Below, one piece after another: positions 366-63,444 of a stretch of DNA of 64,000 nt. Position numbers and translations under genes: made by a program. Position 1 is the first letter of the stretch; each line of letters starts with the position of its first letter. Under the pieces are notes generated by a model. That model had not been told where the DNA came from. It saw only the letters and a list, made by a program, of their open reading frames with translations, and made no database searches. Source of the stretch: an uncultured Bacteroidia bacterium (GTDB lineage Bacteria > Bacteroidota > Bacteroidia > Bacteroidales > F082); assembly GCA_902769875.1 (NCBI GenBank), contig CACXQV010000010.1, positions 1-64,000 on the forward strand, read 5' to 3'.

Positions 366-397
366 TTGTAGAGACGCGCCGTGGCGCGTCTCTACAA
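366..397. repeat. REP-like perfect inverted repeat
   Basis: Two 15-bp arms (366-380 and 383-397) are perfect reverse complements around a GT dinucleotide. The core is GTAGAGACGCGCC / GGCGCGTCTCTAC. It lies between two co-directional paralogous genes. It could act as a transcript hairpin, but there is no U-run, so a dispersed palindromic element is more likely than a classical terminator. A GTG inside it opens an artefactual N-terminal extension of the next gene. Confidence 0.85.
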
Positions 398-422
398 TAA
401 ATCAACACCAAACAAAGCCAAA

Positions 423-3400
423 ATGAAGCGTCTTTTCATTGTATTTTCCCTCATTTTCAGCCTGAGCGTCCCTGCGGTGTGGGCACAGAGCACCTCCACC
501 CAAGGCAAAGAGTTCTGGCTCTCGTTTATGCACAACGGCTTCCGCGACCACACCAGCGGAGGTTGGGTCATCAACCAAGTGCTCATCAGCGCCAAGCGCA
601 ACTGCTCCGGAACGATTTCGAACCCCAACACGGGGTGGTCGCAAGAGTTCACGGTCAACGCAAACAACATCACCACCATCGAAATACCTGAACAAGAAGG
701 GTATCACAACAGTTCGCAATATGAAAGCATCCTGCAAAAAGGGCTCAAGGTGCAGTCGAGCGACACCATTTCGGTGTATTGCACCAACATTGCATACGTT
801 TCTTTCGATGCTTCATTCGTGCTTCCGGTGGAAAGTTTGGGCGACGAATACATCATCCAATCCTACGACCAATCATACCAAGGCGGCACGGCACAGAATG
901 CATTCGTCATCAACAACGAGACCAGCGCGTTCCTCATCGTCGCGACCGAGAACAACACCGTCGTCGACATCACCCCGACTTGCGCCACTTTGGCCGGACA
1001 CCTTGCCAACGAGACCTTTAGCGTCACCTTGAATGCGGGCGAGACCTACCACGTCAGGTCGACACGCACGGGCAACCAACGCGACCTCAGCGGGACAAGG
1101 GTGCTGGCCGCCGACTGCAAGCGCATCGCTGTATTCAACGGCAACACCCTCACCTGCATCCCCATCAACCAAGGCAACGGCTTCGACCACATCTTCGAAC
1201 AAGCGATGCCCTTGCGCTCATGGGGCAAAAACTTCGTGGTGACCAGCTCGATGAACCGCAACCGCGACTTCATCAAAATCACCTCAAGCGCCAACGACAA
1301 CGAAATCACCAAGAACGGTGAGGTTTTGGTCACATTGAACGCCAACCAGTCCTATACATTCGCGATGGCCGAAAGCGAGCGCTCGTGCTTCTTGCAAGCC
1401 ACACAGCCCAGTGCCGTTTACCTCTTCGACAACTCAAGCTACGACCAAAGTCCATTAGGTGGTTTGGGCGACCCCTCAATGGTGTGGATTGCCCCTGTTG
1501 AGCAACGCATCGATGAAGTGACCTTCTCCACCTTCGACCATCCCAACATCGAAATCGAGACACACAGCGTCAACATCATCGTCAACACCGAGGACATCGC
1601 CCAAGTCTTTTTGGATGGCGAGCAAATCTCCCCCCTCAATTTCAGTCGCGTCAACGGCAACAACGATTACAGTTTTGCGCGCCTGAGCATCGAGCACGGC
1701 AGGTATCACCTCTATTGCCCCAACGGATTCAACGCCCACGTCTATGGCTTTGGCGATGCCAAGGGATATGCCTATCTCGTCGGCTCCAATGCCAAGAACC
1801 TGAACACCAACCTGAGCCTCAACGGTGAAACAATGCTGCCAAACGAGAGCTTCAGCTATTGCGCCAACCAACCCATCACTTTCAATGCCAATGTCAACTT
1901 CCAAGAATACAACTTGTTATGGGATTTTGGCGATGGCACCACCAGCACACAAAACCCTGTAGTACACACCTATCAAGACAGTCGCGTCTATCATGTGGCC
2001 CTTTCGGTCAGCACCGACCAAGGCGGCTGCACAGGCACATCGAGCGACACGACCTACTTTTTCGTTGACGCCACCCAACAATACATCATCGAAAACGACC
2101 AGATTTGCGCCGGCGAGCTCTATACCGGACACGGTTTCACCAACGTAAGAATCGAAACCGACACCATTTTGGCCCGACTTGAAGACAACCCGATCCACCC
2201 CGAATGCAAGGACTCCTTGTTGGTTTACATCGATGCGCTTCCCCAATACCACATCCCCATCGACGACAGCCGCTGCTGGCAAGGTACGCCAAGCACATAC
2301 AAGGGCTACGGATTCAGCTTCATCTATGACCAGCCTGGCACATACGACCGCCAGCTCAACCTACAAACCGCCAACGGCTGCGACAGCGTGATCATGCTCC
2401 ACTTGACCGTGGCCGACCGCATCACTCACGAGTTCAGCGTCCACGATTGCACCGGAAGCTATGTTTGGGACGGACAAAGCTACACCACGAGCGGCGATTT
2501 CGTGAACAATTATGTTTCGGCAGGAGGTTGCGACAGCATAGTCACGATGCACCTCACCATAGGCCACACCCAACAAACCTCTTTTGACACCATCACTTGC
2601 AGCACCTTCCATTGGAATGGGCAAGACTACACACAATCAGGCACTTACACACAAGTTTTTGACACTTACGATGGCTGCGACAGTACGGTCGTGTGCCACC
2701 TCACCCTTTCGGGCAACGTGGAAGGCACTACCACTTCAGTCGCCGAGTGCGACTCATTCGAATGGCTCGGAACGGAATACACCATTTCGGGGCAATATTC
2801 CAAGGCCCTGACAACCGATTTGGGTTGCGACAGCACCGTATATCTCAACCTCGATTTGGATTACACACCCACCCCCACACCCATCTATCCCAAAGACACC
2901 ACCAACACCACGCCCCACTGGGTGGTAACGGCTACCGAGTTCCAAATCAACACCTACGACTATTGCCTGAGTGATGAGAATCCAGACTGCGAATGGGACA
3001 ACGTCGTTTGGAGCATCCTAAACGACGATGTGGATTGGGTGCTCGAACCTTTCGGAGAAAATGACCGAAATTGCAAACTATATGTGCTGAATCGCGTTGA
3101 AGACACGGTTTGGCTAAGTGCCAAGGTGTTCAACAACTGCGAAACGGAGGCCGGAATCGAGCGCAGGTATTGGCTCGTGTGCTCATTCTACGGCGTGGAC
3201 GAAAACCAAGCCCAAGCCGATTTCACCGTAACGCCCAACCCAAACAACGGACAAATGGCCTTGGGTTTCGAACACCTCGGCGGCAAACTCGAAATGAAGG
3301 TTTACGACGTGCGTGGCGTGCTCGTCGACGAGGCACGGTTTTTCAGTGCTGCGGATTCTTATTCCACTCCTTACACCTGCCCGACAAAGGCTAAAGGCTT

Positions 3401-3461
3401 GTATTTCTTTGTGGTTACGGGAAAACACGGTTCCGTGGCCCGAAAAGTTCTTGTCCAATAA
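423..3461 (+). CDS. Secreted T9SS cargo protein with IgGFc-binding-like N-terminus and PKD domain
   Basis: 1012 residues. ATG 423 is chosen because it begins a clean signal peptide (MKRLFIVFSLIFSLSVPAVWAQ); the frame extends up to a GTG inside a palindrome at 381. Mature protein: residues about 20-430 begin with TQGKEFWLSF and resemble the IgGFc-binding/adhesin N-terminal domain family. A PKD domain follows around 477-545 (WDFGDG near 500), then several Cys-containing repeats with GCDSxVxxxLxL spacing. A T9SS type A sorting domain ends it from about 930 (PNPNNG, KVYDVRG). The likely role is a cell-surface or released adhesin/binding protein; the ligand is unknown. It is paralogous along its length to the 3555 gene, so the array arose by tandem duplication. 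The IgGFc family name does not prove IgG binding. Confidence 0.85.
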   Translation: MKRLFIVFSLIFSLSVPAVWAQSTSTQGKEFWLSFMHNGFRDHTSGGWVINQVLISAKRNCSGTISNPNTGWSQEFTVNANNITTIEIPEQEGYHNSSQYESILQKGLKVQSSDTISVYCTNIAYVSFDASFVLPVESLGDEYIIQSYDQSYQGGTAQNAFVINNETSAFLIVATENNTVVDITPTCATLAGHLANETFSVTLNAGETYHVRSTRTGNQRDLSGTRVLAADCKRIAVFNGNTLTCIPINQGNGFDHIFEQAMPLRSWGKNFVVTSSMNRNRDFIKITSSANDNEITKNGEVLVTLNANQSYTFAMAESERSCFLQATQPSAVYLFDNSSYDQSPLGGLGDPSMVWIAPVEQRIDEVTFSTFDHPNIEIETHSVNIIVNTEDIAQVFLDGEQISPLNFSRVNGNNDYSFARLSIEHGRYHLYCPNGFNAHVYGFGDAKGYAYLVGSNAKNLNTNLSLNGETMLPNESFSYCANQPITFNANVNFQEYNLLWDFGDGTTSTQNPVVHTYQDSRVYHVALSVSTDQGGCTGTSSDTTYFFVDATQQYIIENDQICAGELYTGHGFTNVRIETDTILARLEDNPIHPECKDSLLVYIDALPQYHIPIDDSRCWQGTPSTYKGYGFSFIYDQPGTYDRQLNLQTANGCDSVIMLHLTVADRITHEFSVHDCTGSYVWDGQSYTTSGDFVNNYVSAGGCDSIVTMHLTIGHTQQTSFDTITCSTFHWNGQDYTQSGTYTQVFDTYDGCDSTVVCHLTLSGNVEGTTTSVAECDSFEWLGTEYTISGQYSKALTTDLGCDSTVYLNLDLDYTPTPTPIYPKDTTNTTPHWVVTATEFQINTYDYCLSDENPDCEWDNVVWSILNDDVDWVLEPFGENDRNCKLYVLNRVEDTVWLSAKVFNNCETEAGIERRYWLVCSFYGVDENQAQADFTVTPNPNNGQMALGFEHLGGKLEMKVYDVRGVLVDEARFFSAADSYSTPYTCPTKAKGLYFFVVTGKHGSVARKVLVQ

Positions 3462-15619: not shown

Positions 15620-17923
15620 TTACTTTTCAATTCTAATACGTGCATCCACAGCGGTCACGTAACGCGGATTGCCGAGGAGCGGGTTCAAATCCATCTCGGC
15701 GATTTCGGGCGCGGCTTGCACCAAAGCGCTCACGCGAACCACCTGTTCGGCATAGAGATCAAGATTGACACCTGCCTGACCACGCACGCCTTCCAGAATC
15801 TTGTAACCTTTAAGGTTCTTGAGCTTGTCGAGCACCTCTTCCTTATTAGTGGGCACGAGCACACTCTCCACGTCCTTCAGCACCTCGATGAAGATGCCGC
15901 CCAAACCGAAGAAGACCTGATGGCCAAATTTCGGGTCGCGCATGGCACCGACGTAAACCTCCGTGCCGTCGAGCATGGGATACATCTCCACGGCGTAGGT
16001 GTCCTTGATGGCCATGAGGCGGTCGAACTCCTTGCTTACCGTGTCGAGGTCTTTCACGCCGAGAGTGACGCCGCCCACATCGCTCTTGTGCAGCGGACCG
16101 ACGACTTTCATCACCAACGGCACATCTTTCGAGCAGCCAACCTCTTTGGCGAAGGCCAAGGCATCCTCTTTCTTGCTCACTTCCACACTCTTCTTGCGGC
16201 TGATACCAGCGGCGTCGAGCAGTTCGTTGTAGTCGGCCATTTCAAGATAACCATCCTTGCAGCGGTCAATGGTTTTGCGGATGCGCACAACGTCAATTTC
16301 CGGTTGGTCGGCAGCCACAGCGCCTTCCTGAACGTAGGCCGGAATCTCTTTCATGCCAACCAAAGCGGCGGCACGCAAACGCTTGGCACCACTCACGACA
16401 CGATAGACTCCATCCATAGGGCTGACGGTAATCGGGGTGAGCAAACCCAATTCGCGTATGGACTCGGCCACCTCGTCCACCTCAGCCTGGTCAGGCTCAT
16501 CGGTGGGAGACACCATAAGCTTGTCGATAGGCAGATTCTCAATGATGCCCGACTTGGGTTTGGGCGTATTGTAAATCTTGCAGATAGCATTGCCGAGCAC
16601 ACATTCCTCGGGGAAGTTGATGTTTCCCTTGGCGATGAAGTCCTCAATCTCTTCCTTCACGTTGATGATGGAAGGCAACACGGGGAAAATGGGCTTCTTG
16701 CAAGTGCGCATCTTCTGGTCGAGCAGGTCATAGACCTCCTTGTTCGAGAAGAGCCCGGGCGAGCCGAAAATGACGACCGAGAAGTCAATGTCGGTGTAGT
16801 CATTCTCCACTGCATCAAGGATATAACCTAATTGTTCGGCGGTGCCAGTGGCGAGGAAGTCGATGGGATTGCCCACCGAGGAGCCGGGGAAGAGCTTCTC
16901 CAAAAGAGCTTTGCTGGCAGGGTGTTCCTTGAGCGAAGGCACCTCCATGCCGCCATTGGAAAGCACGTCCGTGAGCATCACGGCGGGACCGCCCGCGTGG
17001 GTCACCACGGCGCAGCGTTTGCCTTTGATTTCGGGGTGCATAAACACGCCGCAAACGGTGGTCAATTCCTGACGGTTTTGGCAGCGCACAATACCAGCCT
17101 TGCGGAACAGGGCATCCACAGCGGCATCGTTGGTAGCCAAAGCACCCGTATGAGAAGAAGCAGCACGCGAGCCGGCAGCCGATCCTCCACTCTTGATGGC
17201 CGCGATGTGGCATCCCTTGTTGATGAGGCTGCGACTATGCCTGAGCAACCTTTGCGGGTCGCCGATCTTTTCCATATAAAGCATGATGACGCGCGACGAC
17301 TTCTCGGGGTCGAAGGTCTCGTCCAAATGCTCCAACACGTCCTCGATGCCCAACTGGGCACTATTGCCCACAGCCCAAACGCTGTTGAACTTCAGGCCGT
17401 TGCTCATGCCGTATTCCTTGATGAACACAGCTGTTGCGCCACTGCCTGTGATGAAATCGACACCCTTGGGGTCGAGCGGCGGGATGGGCGTATCGAAGCA
17501 GCCGGCATAGTTCACGTTGAGGAAGCCGGTGCAGTTGGGCCCGATAAGCGAACCACCGACGGAGTTGATGGTGTCAACGATATGTTTCTCGATTTCAGCG
17601 CCTTCATGGCTCTCTTCCGAGAAGCCTGCACTGATGATGATGAAGCCTTTGCAGCCCTTCTCTTTGGCCAGCACATCAACGGTCTGGGCGCAGAACTTGG
17701 CGGCAATGCAAAGAATAGCACATTCCACCTGCGGAAGGTCATCCACCTTGGCATAGCACTTAACGCCCTGAACCTCAGTTTCTTTGGGATTCACGGCATA
17801 AATCGGGCCACTGAAAGGGCTCTCCAAAAGGTTCTTCAATGCTTTTCCACCGGGTTTGTGGACGTCGGACGAAGCACCGCACACTACGATGCTTTTCGGG
17901 TCGAGTAATTCTCTTGCTATCAT
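15620..17923 (-). CDS. Acetate/acyl-CoA synthetase (ADP-forming), alpha-beta fusion with internal ParB-like domain
   Basis: 767 residues. Residues 1-130 form a CoA-binding Rossmann domain. About 140-455 are the succinyl-CoA-ligase-like domains with the SSHTGA motif whose His (about 258) should be the phosphorylated residue. About 560-767 form an ATP-grasp_5 beta domain (LVMKVVGPLHKSDVGGV, later EMDLNPLL). ADP-forming enzymes make ATP from acyl-CoA, ADP and phosphate. Between the halves, residues about 463-535, lies a segment with ParB N-terminal hallmarks: IDKLMVSP, VAESIRELGLLTPITV, YRVVSGAKRLRAAALVG, EIPAYV. Fused enzymes are usually nearer 700 residues, so the insert accounts for the extra length. 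There is no sign of a gene-fusion error: the frame is continuous and codon use is uniform. It is monocistronic, with its own promoter. Confidence 0.88.
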   Translation of the reverse strand: MIARELLDPKSIVVCGASSDVHKPGGKALKNLLESPFSGPIYAVNPKETEVQGVKCYAKVDDLPQVECAILCIAAKFCAQTVDVLAKEKGCKGFIIISAGFSEESHEGAEIEKHIVDTINSVGGSLIGPNCTGFLNVNYAGCFDTPIPPLDPKGVDFITGSGATAVFIKEYGMSNGLKFNSVWAVGNSAQLGIEDVLEHLDETFDPEKSSRVIMLYMEKIGDPQRLLRHSRSLINKGCHIAAIKSGGSAAGSRAASSHTGALATNDAAVDALFRKAGIVRCQNRQELTTVCGVFMHPEIKGKRCAVVTHAGGPAVMLTDVLSNGGMEVPSLKEHPASKALLEKLFPGSSVGNPIDFLATGTAEQLGYILDAVENDYTDIDFSVVIFGSPGLFSNKEVYDLLDQKMRTCKKPIFPVLPSIINVKEEIEDFIAKGNINFPEECVLGNAICKIYNTPKPKSGIIENLPIDKLMVSPTDEPDQAEVDEVAESIRELGLLTPITVSPMDGVYRVVSGAKRLRAAALVGMKEIPAYVQEGAVAADQPEIDVVRIRKTIDRCKDGYLEMADYNELLDAAGISRKKSVEVSKKEDALAFAKEVGCSKDVPLVMKVVGPLHKSDVGGVTLGVKDLDTVSKEFDRLMAIKDTYAVEMYPMLDGTEVYVGAMRDPKFGHQVFFGLGGIFIEVLKDVESVLVPTNKEEVLDKLKNLKGYKILEGVRGQAGVNLDLYAEQVVRVSALVQAAPEIAEMDLNPLLGNPRYVTAVDARIRIEK

Positions 17924-18023: not shown

Positions 18024-18031
18024 TACTTTTG
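18024..18031 (+). promoter_or_regulatory. Candidate -7 element of the MATE-NRPS operon
   Basis: TACTTTTG matches TAnnTTTG and is followed by a leader of about 85 bases to ATG 18119. No clear TTG is seen at the right distance, so the -33 half is weak. Confidence 0.45.
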
Positions 18032-18118
18032 CAAGAAAATTATTTGACTGCTTCAAACCATTGACAATGACAACAAAGCAGCGTTTTATTTAAGTTGAAA
18101 AACAAACACGAATACAAG

Positions 18119-19441
18119 ATGAATTTAGAAGAAAAGAAATCGTTTAATCGCCAATTCTGGCGTTTCTTGTGGGCCTCCATCCTCATCGGATTGTCGGCCT
18201 GCTTGGGAAATGTGGTGGATGCGATGATTGTGGGCAACCTGATCAACGAAGATGCGGTGAGTGCCATCAACCTTGCGCTGCCGTTGCTTCAGTTTATGTT
18301 CACCATCAATATGCTGTTGGCCGCTGGTGGAGGTATGCTGGTCGGTATGGAATTAGGCAAAAACGACACACGCCGGGCATCGTATGTCTTCACCATCTCC
18401 ATGTTGGCCTGTCTGTTGGTGGGTCTTGTGTTGACGGGGTGCGGGGTACTGATTCCCGATGCCGTGACACGGCTGTTGTGCGACCACGAGCAGCTTTATC
18501 AGCCCACTTACGATTACCTGCGGGTGACGCTGATAGGGGCACCGGCCTACTTGCTGATGTGGGGCATCGACACGATGGTCAGCGTTGATGGCAGTCCACG
18601 GTTAGTGTCTGTATCCATCTTGGTGGACAATGTCGTTCACTTGGTGCTCGACGTGGTGTTCATCAAATATTTAGGCTGGGGCATCGAGGGTAGCGCATGG
18701 GCCACCGTCATCGGTCACGTCGTGGGCATCGCCCTGATGGGCATCCATTTCCTTTCCAAAGAAAACCATTTGCGACTCTGTTTTGGTCACCAGAAACCCG
18801 TTTTCGGCGCCATCCTCTCGCAAGGTGCGCCGTTGGCCATTGCCTCGGTCTGCCTGACGGTGCTGATGTTCTCGGCGAACAGAATCATCCTGTCGTCACT
18901 GGGGCGCACGGGTATCTATGCCTTTGCCCTCTGCATGAACTTGCTGCTGATTTACAACCTGTTTTTGGGAGGTGTCTGCCGCACCATCCAGTCGTTGGGT
19001 TCCATCCAAGTGGGCAAGGGCGACAACGAGGCTTTCAAGATGGTGTTGCGCAAGTCGTTCAATTTCATCACCGTGGCGATGGTCATCACCTGCATTTTCG
19101 TATGGATATGGCCTGAAAGCATCGTGATGCTTTTCGGTACCGACGAAAACGATTTGATTACTGAAAGCTGCCATGCCTTGCGCATCTTCGCTGTCTGCCT
19201 CATCCCATTCTGCTATATTTATACCATCATGGTCGTTTATAAACTCTACAACTACCACAAAATGGCACTTTTCATCTCCTTCGCCTTGTCGCTGACGGTC
19301 ATCCCCGTACTATGGCTGATTTCGAAGTATGCCAAAGAATGGATATGGTATAGTTACCTGATAGCTTACATCATCGAGGCGGTGGCCATCTTTGTGCTAC
19401 ACAAGATCACCCACGTCAAATTTGAGTTGAATAATAAATAG
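18119..19441 (+). CDS. MATE family efflux transporter
   Basis: About 440 residues, with twelve hydrophobic segments in two six-helix halves and the usual MATE features: an early acidic VVDAMIVGNLINEDAVSAIN segment, and a mid-protein repeat of the pattern beginning at GAILSQGAPLAIASVCL. I use ATG 18119 (MNLEEKKSFNRQFWRF); an in-frame ATG at 18095 would add eight residues and cannot be excluded. MATE proteins export cationic or amphipathic compounds using Na+ or H+ gradients. The stop lies 8 bases before the NRPS start, so the two are one operon, and the likely cargo is the NRPS product (inference). Confidence 0.9.
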   Translation: MNLEEKKSFNRQFWRFLWASILIGLSACLGNVVDAMIVGNLINEDAVSAINLALPLLQFMFTINMLLAAGGGMLVGMELGKNDTRRASYVFTISMLACLLVGLVLTGCGVLIPDAVTRLLCDHEQLYQPTYDYLRVTLIGAPAYLLMWGIDTMVSVDGSPRLVSVSILVDNVVHLVLDVVFIKYLGWGIEGSAWATVIGHVVGIALMGIHFLSKENHLRLCFGHQKPVFGAILSQGAPLAIASVCLTVLMFSANRIILSSLGRTGIYAFALCMNLLLIYNLFLGGVCRTIQSLGSIQVGKGDNEAFKMVLRKSFNFITVAMVITCIFVWIWPESIVMLFGTDENDLITESCHALRIFAVCLIPFCYIYTIMVVYKLYNYHKMALFISFALSLTVIPVLWLISKYAKEWIWYSYLIAYIIEAVAIFVLHKITHVKFELNNK

Positions 19442-19449
19442 ATTAAGAT

Positions 19450-26908
<7,459 letters not shown>

Positions 26909-26922
<14 letters not shown>

Positions 26923-47647: not shown

Positions 47648-48448
47648 TTAATGTTGCTGTTGCTGACTCTTGATAAAACCAGAAACCAAAGAGTAAATTG
47701 AGAGGGTGGAAAGCAATGTTGAAACCAATCCGAGTATGGTATTCAAGTTGGTACTGAAAAACTTGTAGGACATTTCCTCGGTGAAAATGATGTCATTTTG
47801 CTGCATAACAAAAAAATCATCGTTGAACACTTCAATGGAGCGTGGGTCAAGATAATGGATGACACGTTTGCCGTCGACTTCACGCATCACCCCGATTCGG
47901 TCGCGGCGCGTATACCAATCCAAGCCTCCCGACATCGCCAAAGCCTCAAGGAAAGTGCAACGTTCATTGGAGATGTTGATAACTTTACCTCCCGAACTGC
48001 TCAGGAAGAAAATCCTGAAATTCAAAAAGCGGGCAACCACCAAGGGGTTTTTAAGATAGCCATTGCGTTCGAGTTGGGCAGCAATGGTATCCTGCAATTG
48101 CAAACGTGTAAGACCCGCCACATGCAGGTCGCCCAACACCGGGAATTGAATATTGCCGTTGATATCTACAAGATAACCAGAACTATAATAACCACCACTG
48201 CCACCAAGACCTACGTTTTGCAACGAATTAAACGGCCTGACCAATTCATCACTGCTACCATCGCCGTTCAGCACATAGATTCTCAACTCATCGTATGGAG
48301 CCACCGTTGCCTCCAAATCCTTGTTGAGCGGCATACCTTCTATAGGCATATTCTGCAAATAGCGAACCTTCTTCGAAGTTACGCACGAACTGGAAAACAC
48401 TGCCAAAGAAAGCAGCATAAAAGTGATAACTAATCTATTCTTTTTCAT
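47648..48448 (-). CDS. Wza-like polysaccharide export outer-membrane lipoprotein
   Basis: 266 residues. The lipoprotein signal ends SLAVFSSSC (Cys22). Poly_export domain: VAPYDELRIYVLNGDG, YLVDINGNIQFPVLGDLHVAGLTRLQLQDTIAAQL. SLBB-like part: VNISNERCTFLEALAMSGGL with YTRRDRIGVMREVDGKRV. A C-terminal hydrophobic segment (ILGLVSTLLSTLSIYSLVSGF) suits outer-membrane insertion as in Wza. It is first in the Wza-kinase-phosphatase set, with its own promoter box upstream, though transcription may also read in from the glycosyltransferase genes. Confidence 0.92.
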   Translation of the reverse strand: MKKNRLVITFMLLSLAVFSSSCVTSKKVRYLQNMPIEGMPLNKDLEATVAPYDELRIYVLNGDGSSDELVRPFNSLQNVGLGGSGGYYSSGYLVDINGNIQFPVLGDLHVAGLTRLQLQDTIAAQLERNGYLKNPLVVARFLNFRIFFLSSSGGKVINISNERCTFLEALAMSGGLDWYTRRDRIGVMREVDGKRVIHYLDPRSIEVFNDDFFVMQQNDIIFTEEMSYKFFSTNLNTILGLVSTLLSTLSIYSLVSGFIKSQQQQH

Positions 48449-48495
48449 AATTCAAATCTATAATGACATAAAACAATCCATATTAAATGAGCGTG

Positions 48496-48503
48496 CAAAA
48501 GTA
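48496..48503 (-). promoter_or_regulatory. Candidate -7 element for the Wza-kinase-phosphatase genes
   Basis: Minus-strand TACTTTTG, 48 bases before the Wza ATG, in a 120-base gap that separates the export genes from the sugar-assembly genes. No clear TTG is seen at the right spacing. Confidence 0.45.
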
Positions 48504-48568
48504 CAAATATTTTTCTTATCGCGACCATTTCTTTTTCAACTAAAACAAAAGATGTCAGCAGAACTGTC

Positions 48569-49354
48569 TTAGCCGTTCCAAACCAACAGCCTTTTCACGA
48601 CATTCTTCACCGATTGCGACACAAATTCCTTCATCCAACCTACTCTGTCATCAGTCCAACGTTGAGGATGTGTAGTGATCATTAGCTGTTTGGGAATCCT
48701 TTCATTTTCAATGGCTGCAATGACATCGTCTGTCGTATGAAAAACGAGCCCCTTTTTTATCCATTCATCTTGATAAAAAGGTATTTTGTCGCGGATGCTC
48801 ACATTGAATCCATCCCAACGCCTTCCTGTGTCCGTAAGATAGAACACACGCGAGAAATCGACATCGAAATAGGGTTCCCCAATGATTCCGAAATCGTGGT
48901 AATCGTATGATTTCCACAAATCCTTACCATCAAACTTGCTTCTTGGAGAGCCGTGCATACAAATGGTTTCCACTGGATAATACTGCCTAAAATAATCCAA
49001 CTGATGTTTGAAATGGACTATCGCTTTCTGTACGTTCCCATTACAAATGGTCATATCCTCATAGTGATAACCGATTTCATGCCCTAAATCAGCAATGGCT
49101 TTGATGATTTCAGCCTTGTTGCTTCGAGGAACGATACGAAAATAATACGAAGCCTGAATTCCAAGAGAATGCTCCATTCTTGCTGTAGCCAATGAGTTTT
49201 CAGCCTTCAAATCGACATCGTGACGAAGAATGGCAAACCTTTTGTCCGACAGTGTCTCTTTCCCGGAACAATACCTTCCAAAGGTTATGAAATCATATCC
49301 CTTATCTTGCATTGCGTGCAACAATTCACAATATTTACTCATTGTGAAATCCAT
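48569..49354 (-). CDS. Polysaccharide deacetylase-like protein
   Basis: 261 residues from ATG 49354 (the frame also allows GTG 49363 or ATG 49342). NodB-like fold with divergent motifs: ILRHDVDL replaces the usual TFDDG-type site (Asp-x-Asp near residue 50), GHEIGYHYED supplies the metal His pair, and CMHGSPRS and ITTHPQRWTDD come later. There is no signal peptide. It is the last gene of the assembly block; its likely role is deacetylation of an acetylated sugar precursor or lipid-linked intermediate in the cytoplasm. Confidence 0.8.
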   Translation of the reverse strand: MDFTMSKYCELLHAMQDKGYDFITFGRYCSGKETLSDKRFAILRHDVDLKAENSLATARMEHSLGIQASYYFRIVPRSNKAEIIKAIADLGHEIGYHYEDMTICNGNVQKAIVHFKHQLDYFRQYYPVETICMHGSPRSKFDGKDLWKSYDYHDFGIIGEPYFDVDFSRVFYLTDTGRRWDGFNVSIRDKIPFYQDEWIKKGLVFHTTDDVIAAIENERIPKQLMITTHPQRWTDDRVGWMKEFVSQSVKNVVKRLLVWNG

Positions 49355-49405
49355 CTCAGTCACCGTTGGTTCGATATCTGATTATTTTGGCAGCAAATCG
49401 GAGGA

Positions 49406-50491
49406 TTATCTGAATCTGAATTGATAATCTGGATTTTCCTTCATTATATCCCAGCTTTTTGGATAGTTTTCGATGAACCAAGTCAGGAATTGGGAATAAT
49501 CTATTTTTTCAGAAAGCATCCTATTGCGGCGCAATTGCCATTCTTCTTTCAGATTAGGCATAGAAAGCAATTCCTCAATCTTTTGAAACATTTTATCTGA
49601 CTGTTCAGGGCGGAAACCATAAGTCAAGCCATACTTGTACTCCTCTTCTTCGAGATAATGGATACGACCGACAAAAGTGTTACAACGGATGGAGGGGGTT
49701 CCAAGAACAGCAGCTTCAGAAGTCATCGTTTGGCTGTCTCCTATAAACATTGTAGCATAATAAATCAAGGAATGTGCCTTATCGGGCGAAACCTTCAATT
49801 GATACTGCTTAAATTCATCATCAATATCCCTTTCAGTGGTGATAAACACCTTCCCTTTGGTTCTCAAGTACTCGACCAAACGCCTTTTGTTATCGATGGT
49901 CAAGCCCACAACTCCAATATCATGATGCGCCTTGAAAGCATTGAATCTCAAGATGAAATAAGGCTTTCCTTCTTCAATGCCCGCATCTTTCAACACACTT
50001 GGGTCTGGCTTAAAACGATTAGGATGAAGATACGACAACTCATGGTAAGTATGCACATAAACCGTTTTCTTCGCCTTTCTTGGCGTACCAACCGGACTAA
50101 GAATCGTGTCGGCAAAGGGATGGCCAAATTTGACGAAAAGTGGCTCCACTTCATCATCATCGTCATCCAAAATGATGCTTTTCATTTTAGACAACCTGCT
50201 GACATGCGGCAAATTGATAGATGACCCCAGACCCACATCAATATGATGCTGGCGCACTAATTTCAAGATGCGAAAGTCGTACACCAATTGGTCTAAACCC
50301 TTCTTTGCCAAATCATCATCCTTCTTCCCTATGTTGATGTATGGGATACCATACAATTCGAGCAATTTCATTGCAGAAGGAATCTCTTTGACCACCACCA
50401 TCACATTGTTTCCATTGTTGTTAAGCAAAGCATATACATTGCGAAACAAATGCACATGCGCAGGATGGTTGATGTCTATGAGTATATTCAT
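49406..50491 (-). CDS. DUF354 family protein, putative GT-B glycosyltransferase
   Basis: 361 residues from ATG 50491, which begins the family's usual MNILIDINHPAHVHLFRN. That ATG overlaps the TGA of the acyltransferase gene by four bases. DUF354 motifs: GLGSSINLPHVSRL, IILDDDDDEVE, VYVHTYHELSYLHP, and MFIGDSQTMTSEAAVLGTPSIR, which resembles the donor-binding end of GT-B enzymes such as UDP-GlcNAc epimerase/MurG-like proteins. It is common in Bacteroidota and archaeal polysaccharide loci. The exact reaction is unknown. Confidence 0.82.
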   Translation of the reverse strand: MNILIDINHPAHVHLFRNVYALLNNNGNNVMVVVKEIPSAMKLLELYGIPYINIGKKDDDLAKKGLDQLVYDFRILKLVRQHHIDVGLGSSINLPHVSRLSKMKSIILDDDDDEVEPLFVKFGHPFADTILSPVGTPRKAKKTVYVHTYHELSYLHPNRFKPDPSVLKDAGIEEGKPYFILRFNAFKAHHDIGVVGLTIDNKRRLVEYLRTKGKVFITTERDIDDEFKQYQLKVSPDKAHSLIYYATMFIGDSQTMTSEAAVLGTPSIRCNTFVGRIHYLEEEEYKYGLTYGFRPEQSDKMFQKIEELLSMPNLKEEWQLRRNRMLSEKIDYSQFLTWFIENYPKSWDIMKENPDYQFRFR

Positions 50492-51492
50492 ATCTTCTTC
50501 AAAACACTTACCCCCAACTTGCCCATCCCATACAACAACCGATTGCACACAAACGAAAAACGCCCATATTCAACAAGTTCGCCACCAAATTTCAATTTGA
50601 AATCACGCACGCCATACCCACCGTCATCGGGTTTGCCGGCCCCCATAAAATCGAAACGAGGGAGTCCGTTTTCGGCAGCATAACATATTCCCGCATAATT
50701 TGACATCACCGAAGGGAAAAGATTCTTGTTCTGATGCCCATCATCCCCGCAAGCATACCACGCATAGACGGCCTTCCCTACCATTGTAATACATACAAGG
50801 CCTCCAATAACCTTACCTTCAGCATCTTTGGAAAGACAAAAAAGCGAATTGGGCAACTTGTGCAATTCTTCAAAGAATTCAAATGGATAGAGTGGTGTCT
50901 TGACTTTTGTATTATACAAGTCATCCAATAAAGAGTAAAAAGAGGCAATGTCTGCTTCGCTTGGGTTGTTGTCTATTACCAGCCCGTTTTCGACAGCTTT
51001 CTTGATATTCCTTTTCCTATTCCTATCCAACTTGCCATTTACCGCTTCGATAGAAGAAGTGTCAACGATAACATCATAATGTGGCTCATAGGCAAAGCTA
51101 CAATTATTGAAAACCTTATGCCAACGGCTGTAATCGTTGAAGTTGCGAGTCTCAATGTAAATAACTTTATTCCTCAGTTTTGCCTTCAATGAGCTCAGCA
51201 AAGCTCCAAGTTCTTCATCTGCAATGTCATCCGCCAGCAAAAGTCCTCCAAGGATAATTGCCCTTCTGGAAAAGAACCGCTTCAGTCCCTTTCCATCCTT
51301 CTGAATATACCCAACCGCCACACCTTTCAGCTGTCCATCGTTTTCGACAGCATAAGCAAACGCTTCAAGGAATGACAAACTGTCGAAAAAAACGTATGCC
51401 TCCTCGGTTTGAAACCAAGTGGCGACCTCGGATTGTTCCACCAATTCAGCCCACAACTTGGATTCTATGCTATTTCCTTCTACGATTCTCAT
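50488..51492 (-). CDS. FemAB/GNAT-like acyltransferase
   Basis: 334 residues. The two-lobed GNAT pattern of FemX/BioF2-like proteins: an N-lobe with VATWFQTEEAYVFF and IYIETRNFNDYSRW, a basic LDRNRKRNIKKA helix, then YNTKVKTP, VIGGLVCITM, AYAWYA-like (VYAWYACGDDG) and RFDFMGAGKPDDGGYGVRDFK. In Bacteroidota polysaccharide loci such proteins are annotated as GNAT acyltransferases or peptidoglycan-bridge-like enzymes that transfer aminoacyl or acyl groups to an amine. It overlaps the next gene by four bases and lies 1 base after the GT4 gene. The donor is unknown. Confidence 0.78.
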   Translation of the reverse strand: MRIVEGNSIESKLWAELVEQSEVATWFQTEEAYVFFDSLSFLEAFAYAVENDGQLKGVAVGYIQKDGKGLKRFFSRRAIILGGLLLADDIADEELGALLSSLKAKLRNKVIYIETRNFNDYSRWHKVFNNCSFAYEPHYDVIVDTSSIEAVNGKLDRNRKRNIKKAVENGLVIDNNPSEADIASFYSLLDDLYNTKVKTPLYPFEFFEELHKLPNSLFCLSKDAEGKVIGGLVCITMVGKAVYAWYACGDDGHQNKNLFPSVMSNYAGICYAAENGLPRFDFMGAGKPDDGGYGVRDFKLKFGGELVEYGRFSFVCNRLLYGMGKLGVSVLKKI

Positions 51493-51493
51493 A

Positions 51494-52411
51494 CTAATTC
51501 ACCGATTTATACAACTCAACCAAACGTTCCACAACTTGCTTATTATCAAGTCCATCAGACACAATTCTTTCTCTCCCTATTGTCCTGCCAAATCTCAAAG
51601 CATCTTTTATCATACCGGCCAATTCAGACGGCATTCGTGTTTTTGCGACATAGCATCCATCAATTCCTTCTGTCCTTTCCTTCACATCCCCGACATCCAC
51701 ACTCACAATCGGGCAGCCACAAGCCATAGCTTCTTTGATCACTTGCGGCGAGCCTTCGGTGAAAGAAGTCATCAAAAAAGCATCTGCGGCACACATCAAC
51801 AAGGTCACATCTTCACGAGAGTACCCCTTCAGCTCCAATAATTCTACTTTCTCATCATCCAACAACGAAACAGCCTCTTTTGCCAAAGGAGCGTTTTTCA
51901 CCTCATTATCAAAAGCGCCTGCAAACAATACATATTTTTTGTCCAATTGCAAATTCATTCTTTGTCGCGCCTCGGCCTTTCCCGTCAGCTGCAAATCACA
52001 CAAATCAATGCCACAGGGCAACAAAACGAATCTCCTTTTAGGCTTGGCTATGTCCAATATCTTCCGAGAAACGAAAATGTTCATAGCCGAAAGGAACATA
52101 GCCATTTTTGAAAAAGGCAACAGGTTTCTTTCATTAATGTCAGAGCCATGATAAGTCGTCACAACCGGAACCTTTCGTTGCATATTGGCCAACAAGCCCG
52201 AAAGGCCATAATGCGCATGGACGACATCAGGACGAAATTCCTTGATTTTTTGTTTCAATGCAGGCAAATTCCCAAGATACCCTTTAAATCCTTTGCCTAT
52301 CAGACCGAAACATTCCATTTCGCAACCTCGTTTCTTGAGAGCTTCAACTTGCTCAACAATGAACGGGGCAAAACGGTTCTTATTAAAGGAAGCGACAACA
52401 AGGATTCTCAT
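51494..52411 (-). CDS. GT4 family glycosyltransferase
   Basis: 305 residues, shorter than the usual 350-400 because the acceptor lobe is compact. It begins MRILVVASFNKNRFAPFIVEQVEAL, then PDVVHAHYGLSGLLA, VVTTYHGSDIN, VLFAGAFDNEVKNAPLA, and the donor site FTEGSPQVIKEAMACGCPIVSVDVGD. It is cytoplasmic and retains the sugar in the chain (GT4). Its ATG overlaps the membrane protein stop by four bases. The donor sugar cannot be read. Confidence 0.9.
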   Translation of the reverse strand: MRILVVASFNKNRFAPFIVEQVEALKKRGCEMECFGLIGKGFKGYLGNLPALKQKIKEFRPDVVHAHYGLSGLLANMQRKVPVVTTYHGSDINERNLLPFSKMAMFLSAMNIFVSRKILDIAKPKRRFVLLPCGIDLCDLQLTGKAEARQRMNLQLDKKYVLFAGAFDNEVKNAPLAKEAVSLLDDEKVELLELKGYSREDVTLLMCAADAFLMTSFTEGSPQVIKEAMACGCPIVSVDVGDVKERTEGIDGCYVAKTRMPSELAGMIKDALRFGRTIGRERIVSDGLDNKQVVERLVELYKSVN

Positions 52412-53802
52412 ACCGAATAGCCTCTACCGACCAACTTAACCCAAGCCCAAGCGAAATTAGCGAAGAAAATACCCACAAGCCACAAAACATACCAACGCTT
52501 GTGCTTGTTACTTAGTAGACTTATGCCGTACGCCGCAAACATCAACTCAAGCGCCAACACAGGGAAATGGAAACGTTCCGAATGTGCGAAATTACTGAAC
52601 ACCAAAACGACCAAATAACCTGCCGTCACTGCCATAGGCAACACATGTTTTCGCCAATCCCCTCGAATCAACAATGTAAACAACGCAAAAATGGTCAATC
52701 CTGACATAATGTTTTTGATGAAATTACCCCCATTCAGCATCATTTGATTCTCTTGTCCAGGAATTGCAACCAAAGTAGAAAAAGGAATGGTAAAAATAAA
52801 AGGTGCGAACACTGACGCACTTGCATATTTGGCAAAAGAATTAGTTTGTGATCTCCATGAATAACCAGCCTCCTGATTGGTCGTTCTGCCTTCCCAAAGT
52901 TGTTGTGTTTCTTCGACAATTTCCGAGCCAACCGTCAACAACATCCAAATTCCAAAAACAATGCTATACAACACTTTTTGCCATGTCTGTAGCTGTCTGC
53001 TTGAACTCATAATGATGGCAGCCACCAATGCAGCCACCAAAACCGCACCCAAAGCGGTTCGGAAAGTGAACATTGCTAGCATAATGACTCCAGGCAACAA
53101 CAAATTTTTCACCGTGATTTTCTTAGAGCGCAAAGCCAAATCAGCACGCTCAACAAATAGAATGGTCAAAAAAGCCATTTCTGTTTCCTTCAAGGTTACT
53201 CCACAATAATACCACATATTGGGCATCAACATACAGAAAACGGCAGCAATACGACCTACATATTCGCCAAAATTACGCTTAGCTAAATTGTATATAAGCA
53301 CACAGGAAAAAGCATCCATCACACACTTAACAAGATGCGCTGGAAGGACATGCGTTCCCAAAACAAAATACACAAAACCCAACCACCAAAGATAACCAGT
53401 ATCGGAAAAACTAATACCATCCAATTGGCCATTGAATCCCTCAAATCCATAGTTTCTCCAGGTTTCTGCAACTGTATGATAAAAAAGCTCATCTCCTGCT
53501 TGATATGTAAAAGGTTGTCCTGTCATTTCTATATAATAGAAATAAATGAAAACAACATATACGATACGTATTACCATGGCCGTCGTGAATAGTTTCTTAA
53601 CAAATGTCTTGGTAGAAAAGCTATGCCACTTTTGTGTCAATTGATTGGAATAGACAAAGAACACTGTCACAGCCACAAAGCCAAACATTATAAACTGGAA
53701 AGGCATTGCATAGCTCCAGAAAACAAGACTAATGGCTGCCAGAGTGACAACATAACAAGTAATCGCCCTTGACGAAAAGTATTTTGGGAAATAGGTTAAC
53801 AT
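52408..53802 (-). CDS. Polytopic membrane protein, GT-C or polymerase-like
   Basis: 464 residues with about 11 hydrophobic segments. A periplasmic loop after the second or third TM carries YQAGDELFYHTVAETWRNYGF, whose acidic residues resemble the catalytic loop of GT39/ArnT-like GT-C enzymes. The middle has PNMWYYCGVTLKETEMAFL. No Wzy-specific motif is clear, but it is the only strong candidate for a polymerase or lipid-linked transferase in the visible locus. It is coupled by a four-base overlap to the following GT4 gene. Confidence 0.7.
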   Translation of the reverse strand: MLTYFPKYFSSRAITCYVVTLAAISLVFWSYAMPFQFIMFGFVAVTVFFVYSNQLTQKWHSFSTKTFVKKLFTTAMVIRIVYVVFIYFYYIEMTGQPFTYQAGDELFYHTVAETWRNYGFEGFNGQLDGISFSDTGYLWWLGFVYFVLGTHVLPAHLVKCVMDAFSCVLIYNLAKRNFGEYVGRIAAVFCMLMPNMWYYCGVTLKETEMAFLTILFVERADLALRSKKITVKNLLLPGVIMLAMFTFRTALGAVLVAALVAAIIMSSSRQLQTWQKVLYSIVFGIWMLLTVGSEIVEETQQLWEGRTTNQEAGYSWRSQTNSFAKYASASVFAPFIFTIPFSTLVAIPGQENQMMLNGGNFIKNIMSGLTIFALFTLLIRGDWRKHVLPMAVTAGYLVVLVFSNFAHSERFHFPVLALELMFAAYGISLLSNKHKRWYVLWLVGIFFANFAWAWVKLVGRGYSV

Positions 53803-53827
53803 ACTTTGTTCTAATTTTTAAATATAG

Positions 53828-54547
53828 TTATCCGATTATTTTTCTTTTCAATTTAATTATTCGAGTCATATTTTTTTGCCCAACTATTCTACCCACTAAA
53901 ACTTTCCATCCACTTCCAAATTCAGCCCAAGATCCTAAACCCAAATGCTCACAATATGTATTATCTGAACGCAGATAATCACCAGAAGTCTGTCTAGGAC
54001 AAAAATAATCAACTGGGAAAATGTGCAAATCCTTATAATTCTGCTCTCTACCATTAGGAGAGAACCCTTGCTTAGTCATTTTTTCAGACAAATACTTCAC
54101 ATTAGTTGTCATATTGTAAGCTCCGTTTTCCATCACAAAATGTCTATCCTGATAATAGTTTAGCATCTCATTCACCCAAAGTCCATTACGAGTGCTTGCT
54201 ATCACCCCCATCATCACAGGAAAATATTTGCTTCCCTCAAAACCTGCAAATGCACTCCAACATAATAAATCGTCGAATGATTTATATACTTCAAAATCCA
54301 CATCCAAATATAATCCGCCTTCCGTTTTCAGTGCCCATAGCCTGACATAATCGCTCACAAAAGCAAACTTACGAGCTTCGTATGCCTCTTTCGTATATGG
54401 AACGCTATTCACATCAAAGTTGTCCTCATTCCAAAGCTTATATTTCCAATCGGGCATATACTTATGCCAAGAAGCGATGCACTTTTTGGCCAATTCTGGC
54501 ATCTCGCCTCTGCCAAACCAGCAATAGTGGATTATTTTTGGTATCAT
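53828..54547 (-). CDS. GT32 family glycosyltransferase (DXD type)
   Basis: 239 residues. The family start MIPKIIHYCWFGRGEMPELA is followed by WKYKLWNEDNFD, FAFVSDYVRLWALKTEGGLYLDVDFEVYKSFDDLL with the DxD, and the C-terminal region DYFCPRQTSG. This is the Gly_transf_sug/capsular polysaccharide synthesis type, cytoplasmic, using a nucleotide sugar with a divalent metal. The flanking genes on both sides are glycosyltransferases or membrane proteins of the same operon (24 bases to the next start). Confidence 0.9.
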   Translation of the reverse strand: MIPKIIHYCWFGRGEMPELAKKCIASWHKYMPDWKYKLWNEDNFDVNSVPYTKEAYEARKFAFVSDYVRLWALKTEGGLYLDVDFEVYKSFDDLLCWSAFAGFEGSKYFPVMMGVIASTRNGLWVNEMLNYYQDRHFVMENGAYNMTTNVKYLSEKMTKQGFSPNGREQNYKDLHIFPVDYFCPRQTSGDYLRSDNTYCEHLGLGSWAEFGSGWKVLVGRIVGQKNMTRIIKLKRKIIG

Positions 54548-54571
54548 GGTTATCGTTTATCAGTTTATCTT

Positions 54572-55519
54572 CTAAAATAAGTGTTTCAGCTTAGACCCAA
54601 ATCGTTTTAATGCGTATTCCAACCTTAGCTGAACAATAGGTTTTCGATACTCACGCCTCGTCTTTTCTGGCTGCGCGACCCATTCCACTTTCTCCAGCTC
54701 TTGTACTGCTTCAGAATGGTAATTCTTTGACAAATAATATGGAAACAGACCATACGTCCTTAAATTATCTACCAACTGCTTATAATCCGAGTTAGATGCT
54801 TCCTCTTCCGATAAAAAATCCAAATTCCATAGCATGTGTTGCTTGGGGTCATACAGCTTTCCCACACCTCTATTTGCCAGTTCCACATCTTGGTTATAAT
54901 AAGACAAAGGTCTATTCAAAAAGCACACCTTATATTTCAAGGCAAGGCGAATCCACAACAAAAAATCCTCTCCCAACTTGATTCCTTTAGGAAATCCTTT
55001 CATTTCAACGAAAGCCCAACGAGGCACACATACAGCACCGGTCCATAAAGGCATAGCCAAAGTCTTGGCATACACTTTACAATAGTTGATATACCCTTTT
55101 TCAAAGCCTTGTCCCACCCCGATGTTGGCCACTCGGGTCTTCCGTTTGGTCTCATTGACGATGGTATAGTTGGTACCGAAGATGCCTGCGTCGGGAAATT
55201 CTTCTATCAGTTTCGACATCTCCTCAAGGAAAGTTGGATCCCACCAGTCGTCAGCATCCAAAAAACAAAGGTAATCCCCTTGCGAAACGGCCACACCATT
55301 GTTTCGGGCCATCGAGACACCTGAGTTTTCTTGCCTAATCAATCGGCAACAATTATGACCCTGAATGACTTTTTGAGCAACCTCCAAAGAGCTGTCCGTG
55401 CTACCATCATCCACAATAACCAACTCAAAGTCAGTGAATGACTGGGCCAACACACTATTGATGGCTTTGGCAACGTAAGGTGCTTTGTTGTAGAGCGGTA
55501 TGATAACAGAAAATCTCAT
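54572..55519 (-). CDS. GT2 family glycosyltransferase
   Basis: 315 residues, GT-A fold: FSVIIPLYNKAPYVAKAI, VIVDDGSTDSS, and SMARNNGVAVSQGDYLCFLDADDWW with the DxD. The C-terminal half shows no TM segment. It probably adds one sugar to the repeat unit. The ATG overlaps the stop of the upstream GT2 gene by four bases. The donor is unknown. Confidence 0.92.
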   Translation of the reverse strand: MRFSVIIPLYNKAPYVAKAINSVLAQSFTDFELVIVDDGSTDSSLEVAQKVIQGHNCCRLIRQENSGVSMARNNGVAVSQGDYLCFLDADDWWDPTFLEEMSKLIEEFPDAGIFGTNYTIVNETKRKTRVANIGVGQGFEKGYINYCKVYAKTLAMPLWTGAVCVPRWAFVEMKGFPKGIKLGEDFLLWIRLALKYKVCFLNRPLSYYNQDVELANRGVGKLYDPKQHMLWNLDFLSEEEASNSDYKQLVDNLRTYGLFPYYLSKNYHSEAVQELEKVEWVAQPEKTRREYRKPIVQLRLEYALKRFGSKLKHLF

Positions 55520-56361
55520 TTGTATTGTGAAATGCTGTTCTTCTTGCGTTGGTATTTCTCCACCTTAAACAGGCAGCGTTCCAAGAACCACATCAATTTA
55601 TAAGCCCAAGGATGCCTTTGCAACCGTTTGATTTGGTCTATCGGGAAAGCAAATCTTTCGTAATCAGTCAAGATGGTCTTGGGAAACAATTGTTCCAGAA
55701 CCTGTTTGCGCTCGGTCTTGTCCAAATCCTTGTTGGTCTCGCTGATGCCAGTCATATCGAACAAAGTGACATCCATATCGACATATCGTGGTTTTTCGCC
55801 ACCTAAAATGATGGATTGCAAATACCATTTCCAGTCGGAAACAATCTTTAGGCTTTCATCGTAATAGCCATATTTCTCGAACAATTCACGACGGATATAG
55901 ACTGGGTCGTGGTTCAGAGTGCCTGTGAACATCCCCAGCATCGATATTTCCTGTCCTGCGAAGCACTTGTCGACCATTCTGCGACCATCGGGAAAGCACT
56001 TTATCATATTGCCATACAATATGGATGGACAACCCGCTTCTGTAAGAGCCTTCATCATCCGTTCCGTAACCTCATCTGAAGCAAGACAATCTGCCGAATT
56101 GAGAATCTGAACATACTCACCCGAAGCCATTCTGATGCCTTTGTTCATAGCGTAATAAATGCCTGAATCTGGCTCCGAAACCCATTTCAAGTGCGCAAAT
56201 TGGGTTTCATATCTCTTTATCACCTCAACACTGCCATCGGTCGATGCACCGTCAATGACGATGTACTCAAGCTTCTTGTAAGTTTGAGCTGCCACGCTTT
56301 GCATAGTCTTTTCAAGTCCAAAAGCGTTGTTCTTATTGATGGTGATGATGGAGAAAAGCAT
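55516..56361 (-). CDS. GT2 family glycosyltransferase
   Basis: 281 residues: FSIITINKNNAFGLEKTMQS, YIVIDGASTDGSVEVI, GIYYAMNKGIRMASGEYVQILNSAD. The usual second DxD is replaced by N-S-A-D, as in the WbbL-related subgroup often found in O-antigen and capsule loci. It overlaps the next GT2 gene by four bases and starts 5 bases after the GT4 gene stop. Confidence 0.9.
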   Translation of the reverse strand: MLFSIITINKNNAFGLEKTMQSVAAQTYKKLEYIVIDGASTDGSVEVIKRYETQFAHLKWVSEPDSGIYYAMNKGIRMASGEYVQILNSADCLASDEVTERMMKALTEAGCPSILYGNMIKCFPDGRRMVDKCFAGQEISMLGMFTGTLNHDPVYIRRELFEKYGYYDESLKIVSDWKWYLQSIILGGEKPRYVDMDVTLFDMTGISETNKDLDKTERKQVLEQLFPKTILTDYERFAFPIDQIKRLQRHPWAYKLMWFLERCLFKVEKYQRKKNSISQYK

Positions 56362-56366
56362 TACTA

Positions 56367-58642: not shown

Positions 58643-58671
58643 TATTTGTTGCGTTTTCCTGTCCTCAACTA

Positions 58672-59619: not shown

Positions 59620-59685
59620 AAAACTTGTTTTTTGTGCTTTTACGCTAAACAACCAACTTTCAATCGCCCAGATTCTTATTGGACA

Positions 59686-61868: not shown

Positions 61869-62565
61869 CAATACACTCCCGATGTATACAAGACACATCG
61901 TCATAGTTTACCATCCCGTCCATCAAAACAGGCACAAGGTTTTGCTGACCCAAATACTCCAATTGCTTGTTAGAATGCCTCCCAAATGAAAATGCATAAA
62001 ATGGCACTTTCCCTTTGATGTTCATCAAGTACTCCTCCGATTTGCGCACAGATTCTTTAAAAGATTCCATCGATATTTTCAAACAATCATCATGCGACCA
62101 ACCGTGTGAAGCTATAGTTATTAAAGGTTCATATCGCTCCACCAAAAAGACCACTTCTTCCTTTGTCAGAAATTCTTCCGAGTCCCTACTTTGAAAATGC
62201 TTTCCATCCATATACAAAGGATTCAAGAACAAAGTAACAGGAATCTTCTCTTCAGCTAACCAAGGCAGAATGTTTTTCAACGAAGCCCAGCCGTCATCGG
62301 AAGTCAACACTGCATAATTTGTGTTTCTAAACTTGTCACAAGAAATATGATTGTACGCTTCCTCCAAAGAAATAAAAGTATATTTCTTCTTCAGTGCCAA
62401 AACATTCCGCTTAAAAGCATCTGTTTGAGTCCAGTCACATTCCCACATCGTATCGGGGTCAAAAATATCGCTCACATGATGGAAACAAAACACACGAACA
62501 GACCTAAAGCGCAACCTAGTCCATTTTCTTTTAATTGCATTAACCAATGCGTCCATAGCTTCCAC
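61858..62565 (-). CDS. Polysaccharide deacetylase (NodB-like)
   Basis: 235 residues. NodB motifs: VFCFHHVSD at the start, LTSDDG (Asp-Asp metal/base), IASHGWSHDD (metal His pair), and AFSFGRHSNKQL late. It is short and lacks a signal peptide, so it is a cytoplasmic sugar or lipid-precursor deacetylase and not a surface enzyme. The position between two GT2 genes suggests it modifies a repeat-unit sugar. Confidence 0.87.
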   Translation of the reverse strand: MEAMDALVNAIKRKWTRLRFRSVRVFCFHHVSDIFDPDTMWECDWTQTDAFKRNVLALKKKYTFISLEEAYNHISCDKFRNTNYAVLTSDDGWASLKNILPWLAEEKIPVTLFLNPLYMDGKHFQSRDSEEFLTKEEVVFLVERYEPLITIASHGWSHDDCLKISMESFKESVRKSEEYLMNIKGKVPFYAFSFGRHSNKQLEYLGQQNLVPVLMDGMVNYDDVSCIHRECIDDE

Positions 62566-62577
62566 ATTTTTCCCATT

Positions 62578-63438: not shown

Positions 63439-63444
63439 ATTCAA

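Follow-up and report, generated by a model that had tools for sequence, protein, structure and literature searches.

A transporter gene and its peptide synthetase

The stretch of DNA analysed here, called the window throughout, comprises positions 1 to 64,000 of contig CACXQV010000010.1 (assembly GCA_902769875.1) from an uncultured bacterium of the Bacteroidales lineage F082. Our subject is a two-gene set within it, a MATE-family exporter gene followed on the same strand, after a gap of 8 bases, by a gene for a dimodular nonribosomal peptide synthetase (NRPS) whose condensation (C), adenylation (A), carrier (T) and reductase (R) domains are arranged C-A-T-C-A-T-R (Table 1). A first-pass annotation had described this pair as an exporter upstream of two modules with intact core motifs, a terminal reductase and no thioesterase, and the open reading frames, Pfam matches (E ≤ 0.001) and located residues bear that description out. 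The NRPS matches two Condensation, two AMP-binding, two AMP-binding_C and two PP-binding domains and NAD_binding_4, with no thioesterase family among its Pfam matches (eight families listed at this threshold). Both A-domain cores were located along with the motifs of C1, C2, T1, T2 and R, and on alignment no catalytic residue is lost, the core residues of the C, A, T and R domains all being present. The AlphaFold 2 (AF2) model of C1 has a mean predicted local distance difference test score (pLDDT) of 91.4. The exporter gene scores 101 bits against Pfam MatE, above the gathering score of 24.9, and falls narrowly below the cut-off of TIGR00797 (140.3 against 147.4 bits). Its frame is open already from a TTG at 18095; the ATG at 18119 gives the 440 amino acids (aa) tabulated.

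Table 1. Positions in the window of the two genes, the domains of the NRPS and a possible promoter.
Feature	Positions	Strand	Basis or remark
MATE-family exporter, 440 aa	18119..19441	+	PF01554, 101 bits; dN/dS; MATE next to 33/36 dimodular relatives
Dimodular NRPS, C-A-T-C-A-T-R, 2,490 aa	19450..26922	+	Open reading frame, Pfam, dN/dS
C1, N-terminal condensation domain, aa 4-432	19459..20745	+	HHTIFDG at 19828; proposed loader of the N-terminal cap
A1, aa 431-927	20740..22230	+	Pocket DVEFSAGILK
T1 carrier, aa 939-1010	22264..22479	+	Ser972, codon at 22363
C2, internal condensation domain, LCL-like, aa 1042-1474	22573..23871	+	HHLVFDG at 22948
A2, aa 1478-1985	23881..25404	+	Pocket DAEGTGVDDK; basic residue proposed
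T2 carrier, aa 1996-2062	25435..25635	+	Ser2026, codon at 25525
R, terminal NAD(P)H-dependent thioester reductase, aa 2097-2488	25738..26913	+	GATGYLG at 25810, Thr2253, Tyr2287, Lys2291
TACTTTTGC, match to TAnnTTTG; possible promoter of the MATE-NRPS pair	18024..18032	+	Motif match, weak

The domain scores, together with orthologues that are 95-96% identical and show ratios of nonsynonymous to synonymous change (dN/dS) of 0.088 and 0.098, exclude chance as an explanation of the pair. Both genes are under purifying selection, with dN/dS of 0.088-0.131 for the NRPS against eight relatives and 0.045-0.100 for the MATE gene in five comparisons. A same-genus copy in genome G018 is broken by two TGA codons and one TAA codon in the main match.

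To place the NRPS among its relatives, at least 562 loci in named genomes were confirmed by T-R alignment and the best 80 of these were analysed, chosen by T-R similarity and not by pocket code (L-numbers denote loci and G-numbers same-genus genomes; L087 = G124, L091 = G031, L126 = G018 and L133 = G138). Their closed frames comprise 36 of the C-A-T-C-A-T-R type, 18 C-A-T-R, four A-T-C-A-T-R, three trimodular, two A-first trimodular (L109:2306-11485 and L135:2294-11452, both complete) and fragments, while L108, open at its 5′ end, has at least four modules. The four A-T-C-A-T-R frames are pieces of interrupted genes, since each has a C-A frame directly upstream, and every complete dimodular gene seen among the 80 loci has an N-terminal C domain. 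Fourteen of the 18 C-A-T-R frames carry a whole C domain close to their start; L105 starts further in and L088, L110 and L157 are pieces.

The proposed link to an exporter stands in these relatives, with a same-strand MATE match within 1.5 kb of 33 of the 36 closed dimodular genes (12 upstream and 23 downstream, 2 of them on both sides; L132, L150 and L161 lack one); a few of these matches reach only 28-32% identity. A MATE gene was found near one of the three closed trimodular relatives, the other two having less than 1.5 kb of upstream sequence, and near none of the 14 monomodular ones, two of which have one short flank. These monomodular C-A-T-R loci (L094, L106 and L111 among them) encode enzymes some 1,440 aa long that share the last pocket of the window's NRPS and may make N-acyl amino aldehydes. 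The trimodular NRPS at L071:8192-18670 (G031) has a middle module with the code DAQSRGCVAK between window-type first and last modules, and is adjoined by an MFS gene and a paralogue.

The reductase, the last pocket and the N-terminal domain

Everything that marks a reductive-release NRPS was found: complete modules, a terminal reductase of the short-chain dehydrogenase/reductase (SDR) type with Thr, Tyr, Lys and GxxGxxG, and no thioesterase. Across the alignment the reductase Thr is kept in all 102 rows with a letter and the Tyr and Lys in all 103, while the T-domain Ser is present in 84/84 cases before a C domain and 105/105 before R. Among solved structures the closest match is 6vtj (265 bits), followed by the AusA reductases 4f6l and 4f6c. 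The release by reduction that the first-pass annotation predicted is upheld, and the NRPS very probably sets a dipeptide free in this way. We propose that the product leaves as an aldehyde and not an alcohol.

Aligning all A domains gave the ten-residue pocket codes; columns 299 and 301 of the code shift by one between readings based on A1 and on A2, which leaves the A2 letters of the window unaffected. By identity to the window's reductase, the 103 reductase rows split into 53 at 73% or more and 50 at 53% or less. In the closer group the 47 readable last-pocket codes (6 unreadable) are 46 DAEGTGVDDK and one DAEGTGVNDK; in the other group none of the 43 readable codes (7 unreadable) is DAEGTGV(D/N)DK. 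These counts include two contigs twice (L071 = L091, L075 = L087); with the copies removed, the code stands in 45 of 101 rows. It is found in enzymes of one, two, three and four modules. The remaining readable last pockets are uncharged (20, of which 14 are DAMF-type), Lys/Arg-bearing (21) or DANDNGEVGK (2).

The acids of the A2 pocket are Asp235, Glu239, Asp330 and Asp331, of which the last three would suit a positively charged side chain and so point to Arg or Lys. Glu239 is shared with published Arg-module codes of AerM from three strains (DVENVGAITK, DVENIGAITK and DVENGAVVTK, in the portion of PMC3765200 used here) and with the Lys-module codes of BacB (DAESIGSV) and Pspph1923 (DGEDHGTV; an excerpt of PMC3207962). 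A basic last residue, giving an aldehyde of the argininal or lysinal type, is an evenly balanced prediction.

The first-pass annotation had also called C1 a starter domain, which its N-terminal position suggests, and here the outcome was divided. FastTree was used to build a tree from 160 C domains, in which two contigs are counted twice and midpoint rooting may displace labels. All 80 internal domains and one N-terminal domain (L138) stand apart there from 61 of the 62 N-terminal, all 14 monomodular and four position-uncertain domains; local support is 0.997 for the internal side and 0.564 for its counterpart. The monomodular domains sit on a very long branch. Given this separation, with L138 as the exception, we reject the reading of C1 as a plain LCL domain. 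Profile and structure comparisons with typed C domains gave mixed results; a lipid-type starter role for C1 is plausible but was not accepted as proven. The N-terminus of the product would probably be capped, since no complete dimodular gene seen among the 80 loci lacks the N-terminal C domain and since Asp235 is replaced by V or I in the first pocket of the A-first trimodular genes L109 and L135. The first A domain of these two perhaps loads a starter that is not an amino acid, although its best profile matches are still amino-acid A domains.

Compared with 16 dimodular enzymes that have the same last pocket, the median identity of the window's NRPS is 61% in C1, 89% in A1, 84% in C2, 89% in A2 and 84% in R. 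In seven of them (L092, L093, L095, L097, L099, L116 and L132) the best single break in identity lies at aa 414-433, the C-A linker, with identities of 0.54-0.61 to its left and 0.86-0.89 to its right. Synonymous divergence (dS) of C1 in these seven is 2.5-3.2 in six and saturated in L116, against 0.75-1.73 for A1, C2, A2 and R; values for the short T domains go up to 2.6. Since a faster-changing C1 protein would not by itself raise dS, we read the seven breaks as exchange: C1 looks to have been swapped as a unit at the linker, leaving one peptide core with changing caps. In the control enzymes L089, L090, L104 and L131, C1 is 80-81% identical with dS of 0.59-0.83, and L104 and L131 break weakly at 424 (0.81 vs 0.91). 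L130 is intermediate (0.74 vs 0.89, break at 432), L128 and L134 break near aa 806 within A1 and have A1 codes that differ from the window's, L114 is diverged along its whole length and L087 is nearly identical.

Distribution and genomic surroundings

The genome of the host, a gut bacterium of ruminants, is a 3.5-Mb assembly, 82.6% complete, with a second NRPS of the same kind at C92:2103-6692 that is truncated by the contig end. No 4′-phosphopantetheinyl transferase (PPTase) gene lies within the NRPS cluster; the sole ACPS match in this incomplete genome is on contig C12 (51.7 bits), and its frame reads as that of a probable Sfp-type enzyme. A query of part of A2 with T2 and R matched in 23 of 99 genomes of the genus, the host included (E ≤ 1e-60). 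Within the family the reductase was found in 23 of 173 genomes, confined to the host's genus among 16, and in an even sample of the order in 12 of 393 genomes and 11 of 206 genera, again with the host included (E ≤ 1e-20). Among the best 80 loci, 55 have record titles with rumen, reticulum, omasum, abomasum or a RUG-type label, which we take to mean rumen uncultured genome; this count was made by hand and two of the 55 are one contig. Among the remaining titles are ones that name deer, horse faeces or buffalo colon, and many give no site. Reductases labelled Prevotellaceae (L088, L093 and L129) are up to 85% identical to the window's and therefore closer than those of the same-genus G031 and G050 (82% and 78%), which suggests, on depositors' taxon labels and reductase identities, that these genes have moved between lineages. 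A plasmid origin was rejected, all 237 matching plasmid records being less than 60% identical and the 20 listed less than 31.5%.

The gene pair lies between a divergent upstream gene for an ADP-forming acyl-CoA ligase (Pfam) and a convergent downstream Nudix gene that overlaps the NRPS by 14 bases. Similar frames also lie on either side of the orthologues in G048, G124 and G123, where they do not overlap the NRPS. The ligase (15623-17923, minus strand), of the ADP-forming acyl-CoA/acetate-CoA type, is an odd fusion with ParB_N (PF02195, 41.5 bits) between its two halves, and 767-aa frames like it adjoin the orthologous NRPS in L067, L074, L075 and L078. The promoter assignment of TACTTTTGC is weak because the window holds 27 matches to TAnnTTTG, presumably the Bacteroidetes -7 element, where chance would give 18.35. 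Paralogous NRPS-reductase genes are preceded by genes for a STAS protein and for a SpoIIE phosphatase that carries a PDC sensor and HATPase (L076:1796-4274), and by one for an alginate-export-like barrel (L069:8250-9584). These genes hint at partner-switching control, and look-alike frames, judged by eye, precede other paralogues. Elsewhere in the window, 381-3458 (plus strand) encodes a large protein that has IgGFc_binding and PKD domains; its match to a secretion tail is weak and under the cut-off. Positions 48000-64000, extending in L083, carry a run of glycosyltransferase-like genes (by eye) at a lower G+C content of 0.37-0.44, possibly a polysaccharide locus, and an AMP-binding enzyme lies just past the window (L083:2923-4407).

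Candidate product, alternatives and wider reading

The explanation we favour is that the intact two-gene set makes and exports an N-capped dipeptide aldehyde; with reductive dipeptide release, the cap and the basic last residue all having to hold together, it is tentative. A PPTase encoded elsewhere in the genome would activate the T1 and T2 carriers, C1 would cap the A1-loaded residue with an acyl group that is not an amino acid, C2 would couple the capped residue to the Arg or Lys loaded by A2, the reductase would set the product free as an aldehyde and the MATE protein would carry it out of the cell. Such a product would resemble leupeptin or the aeruginosin argininals and would reversibly inhibit proteases cutting after basic residues. 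Whether protease inhibition is its function is an even call.

Several observations weigh against this explanation. Identity among the 42 compared A domains that carry this last-pocket code is 84-99%, so the pocket code is not independent of general conservation. The A2 code agrees with the AerM Arg codes at 4 of 10 positions, Glu239 included, with BacB at 4 of 8 and with Pspph1923 at 3 of 8. C1 is somewhat freer to change in general, as the weak breaks in L104 and L131 indicate, and its mixed likeness to typed domains leaves the cap less firmly placed. The low agreement with known Arg codes also favours an alternative dipeptide aldehyde, likewise N-capped but ending in a non-basic residue, with the pocket acids binding a neutral polar side chain or facing elsewhere. 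That position 239 varies at A1-type positions points the same way, as does the finding that the exact codes of six family pockets, A2's included, do not occur in the open-licence papers searched. We rank this alternative only just below the favoured explanation. Against it stands that last pockets with at least two acids and no Lys or Arg are confined to this clade and the two DANDNGEVGK loci, the other readable last pockets being uncharged or Lys/Arg-bearing.

The pyrazinone-type product that the first-pass annotation had also offered would come from a free-amine dipeptide aldehyde that closes to an imine and is then oxidised, as with AusA, with C1 silent or a relic. AusA (NF047350) is indeed the best NCBIfam profile of the NRPS, and in part of PMC9540692 AusA-like dimodular NRPSs in 13 of 981 rumen genomes are read as pyrazinone makers. 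The score of 1056.3 bits is, however, far from the AusA cut-off of 2500, an alignment of 23 N-terminal C domains shows no change in the second His, the Asp or the Gly of HHxxxDG, C1 is apparently exchanged as a unit and not decaying, and every complete dimodular gene seen among the 80 loci keeps it. An N-terminal cap would block simple cyclisation, as the first-pass annotation itself pointed out, and a pyrazinone is accordingly not favoured and quite improbable. Less probable still is that the reductase continues to the alcohol, or that the aldehyde is an intermediate for further reaction. Reductase domains can proceed to the alcohol (an excerpt of PMC7586950) and Nodularia makes argininol alongside argininal (PMC3765200, Table 3), but AusA, the reductase ranked next after 6vtj among the PDB matches, yields an aldehyde (a passage of PMC12153313).

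For the N-capped aldehyde the kind of system is already known, because dipeptide aldehydes of gut bacteria have been described; Guo et al. reportedly reported such an NRPS family in 2017. The closest solved relative of T2-R, the only part compared, is the T-R didomain 6vtj/6vtz (labelled 'Non-ribosomal peptide synthetase'), whose source we take to be a rumen archaeon. Ruminopeptin presumably comes from another phylum and carries acidic residues, unlike the basic last residue proposed here. It is likewise a dipeptide aldehyde from a gut NRPS (rup, Ruminococcus bromii; part of PMC12327764). Sections of PMC8210680, PMC12327764 and PMC12153313 describe reductive-release NRPSs in gut bacteria, and the first, citing Guo et al., states that the aldehydes inhibit host proteases and that an N-acyl tail may stabilise some. 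Judged by these descriptions, the present set differs in its rumen Bacteroidales clade, acid-lined last pocket, MATE gene and changing C1. AusA shares a homologous C-A-T-R half and reductase; it starts with A and makes pyrazinones (again from a passage of PMC12153313), whereas the window's NRPS starts with a C domain. In the synthesis of the cyanobacterial aeruginosins a C domain does the loading, the Arg A domain has Glu239 and a reductase leaves an argininal end (in the portion of PMC3765200 used), and the pseudospumigins, which inhibit trypsin, have the same end (an excerpt of PMC5640712). Both differ from the window's NRPS in using several proteins and Choi or other units, and in phylum and family. 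A rumen survey counts 5,346 NRPS clusters, 934 of them in Bacteroidaceae (part of PMC8241843), and term counts in its text gave no occurrence of 'aldehyde' or 'terminal reductase'. In the open-licence literature on rumen, Prevotella and Bacteroidetes NRPSs and on peptide aldehydes that was searched, none of the titles dealt with a rumen Bacteroidales NRPS making a basic-residue aldehyde, nor were the acid-lined pocket, the rumen Bacteroidales spread and the C1 exchange found described.

It is possible, though we hold the whole of this reading only tentatively, that a pool of peptide-aldehyde synthetases moves among rumen Bacteroidales and amounts to a natural library of protease inhibitors. 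The acid-lined, Lys/Arg-bearing and uncharged last pockets would place a basic, acidic or hydrophobic residue beside the aldehyde, and would match three main protease specificities, the window's NRPS being the basic, trypsin-like-directed member. Two last-pocket classes do occur within single genomes or contigs (G048; L102, L105, L120 and L134). The N-terminal cap would be altered through whole-domain exchange at the C-A linker, a joint also used by NRPS engineers, and the C1 exchanges offer natural evidence of where NRPSs tolerate recombination. A conserved last pocket with a changing C1 gives concrete and cheap predictions, namely the A2 substrate and a series of N-acyl masses. How dietary protein is degraded in the rumen is important for nitrogen use; if this reading is true, widespread exported inhibitors with specificity classes would provide a testable molecular account of competition over rumen protein.
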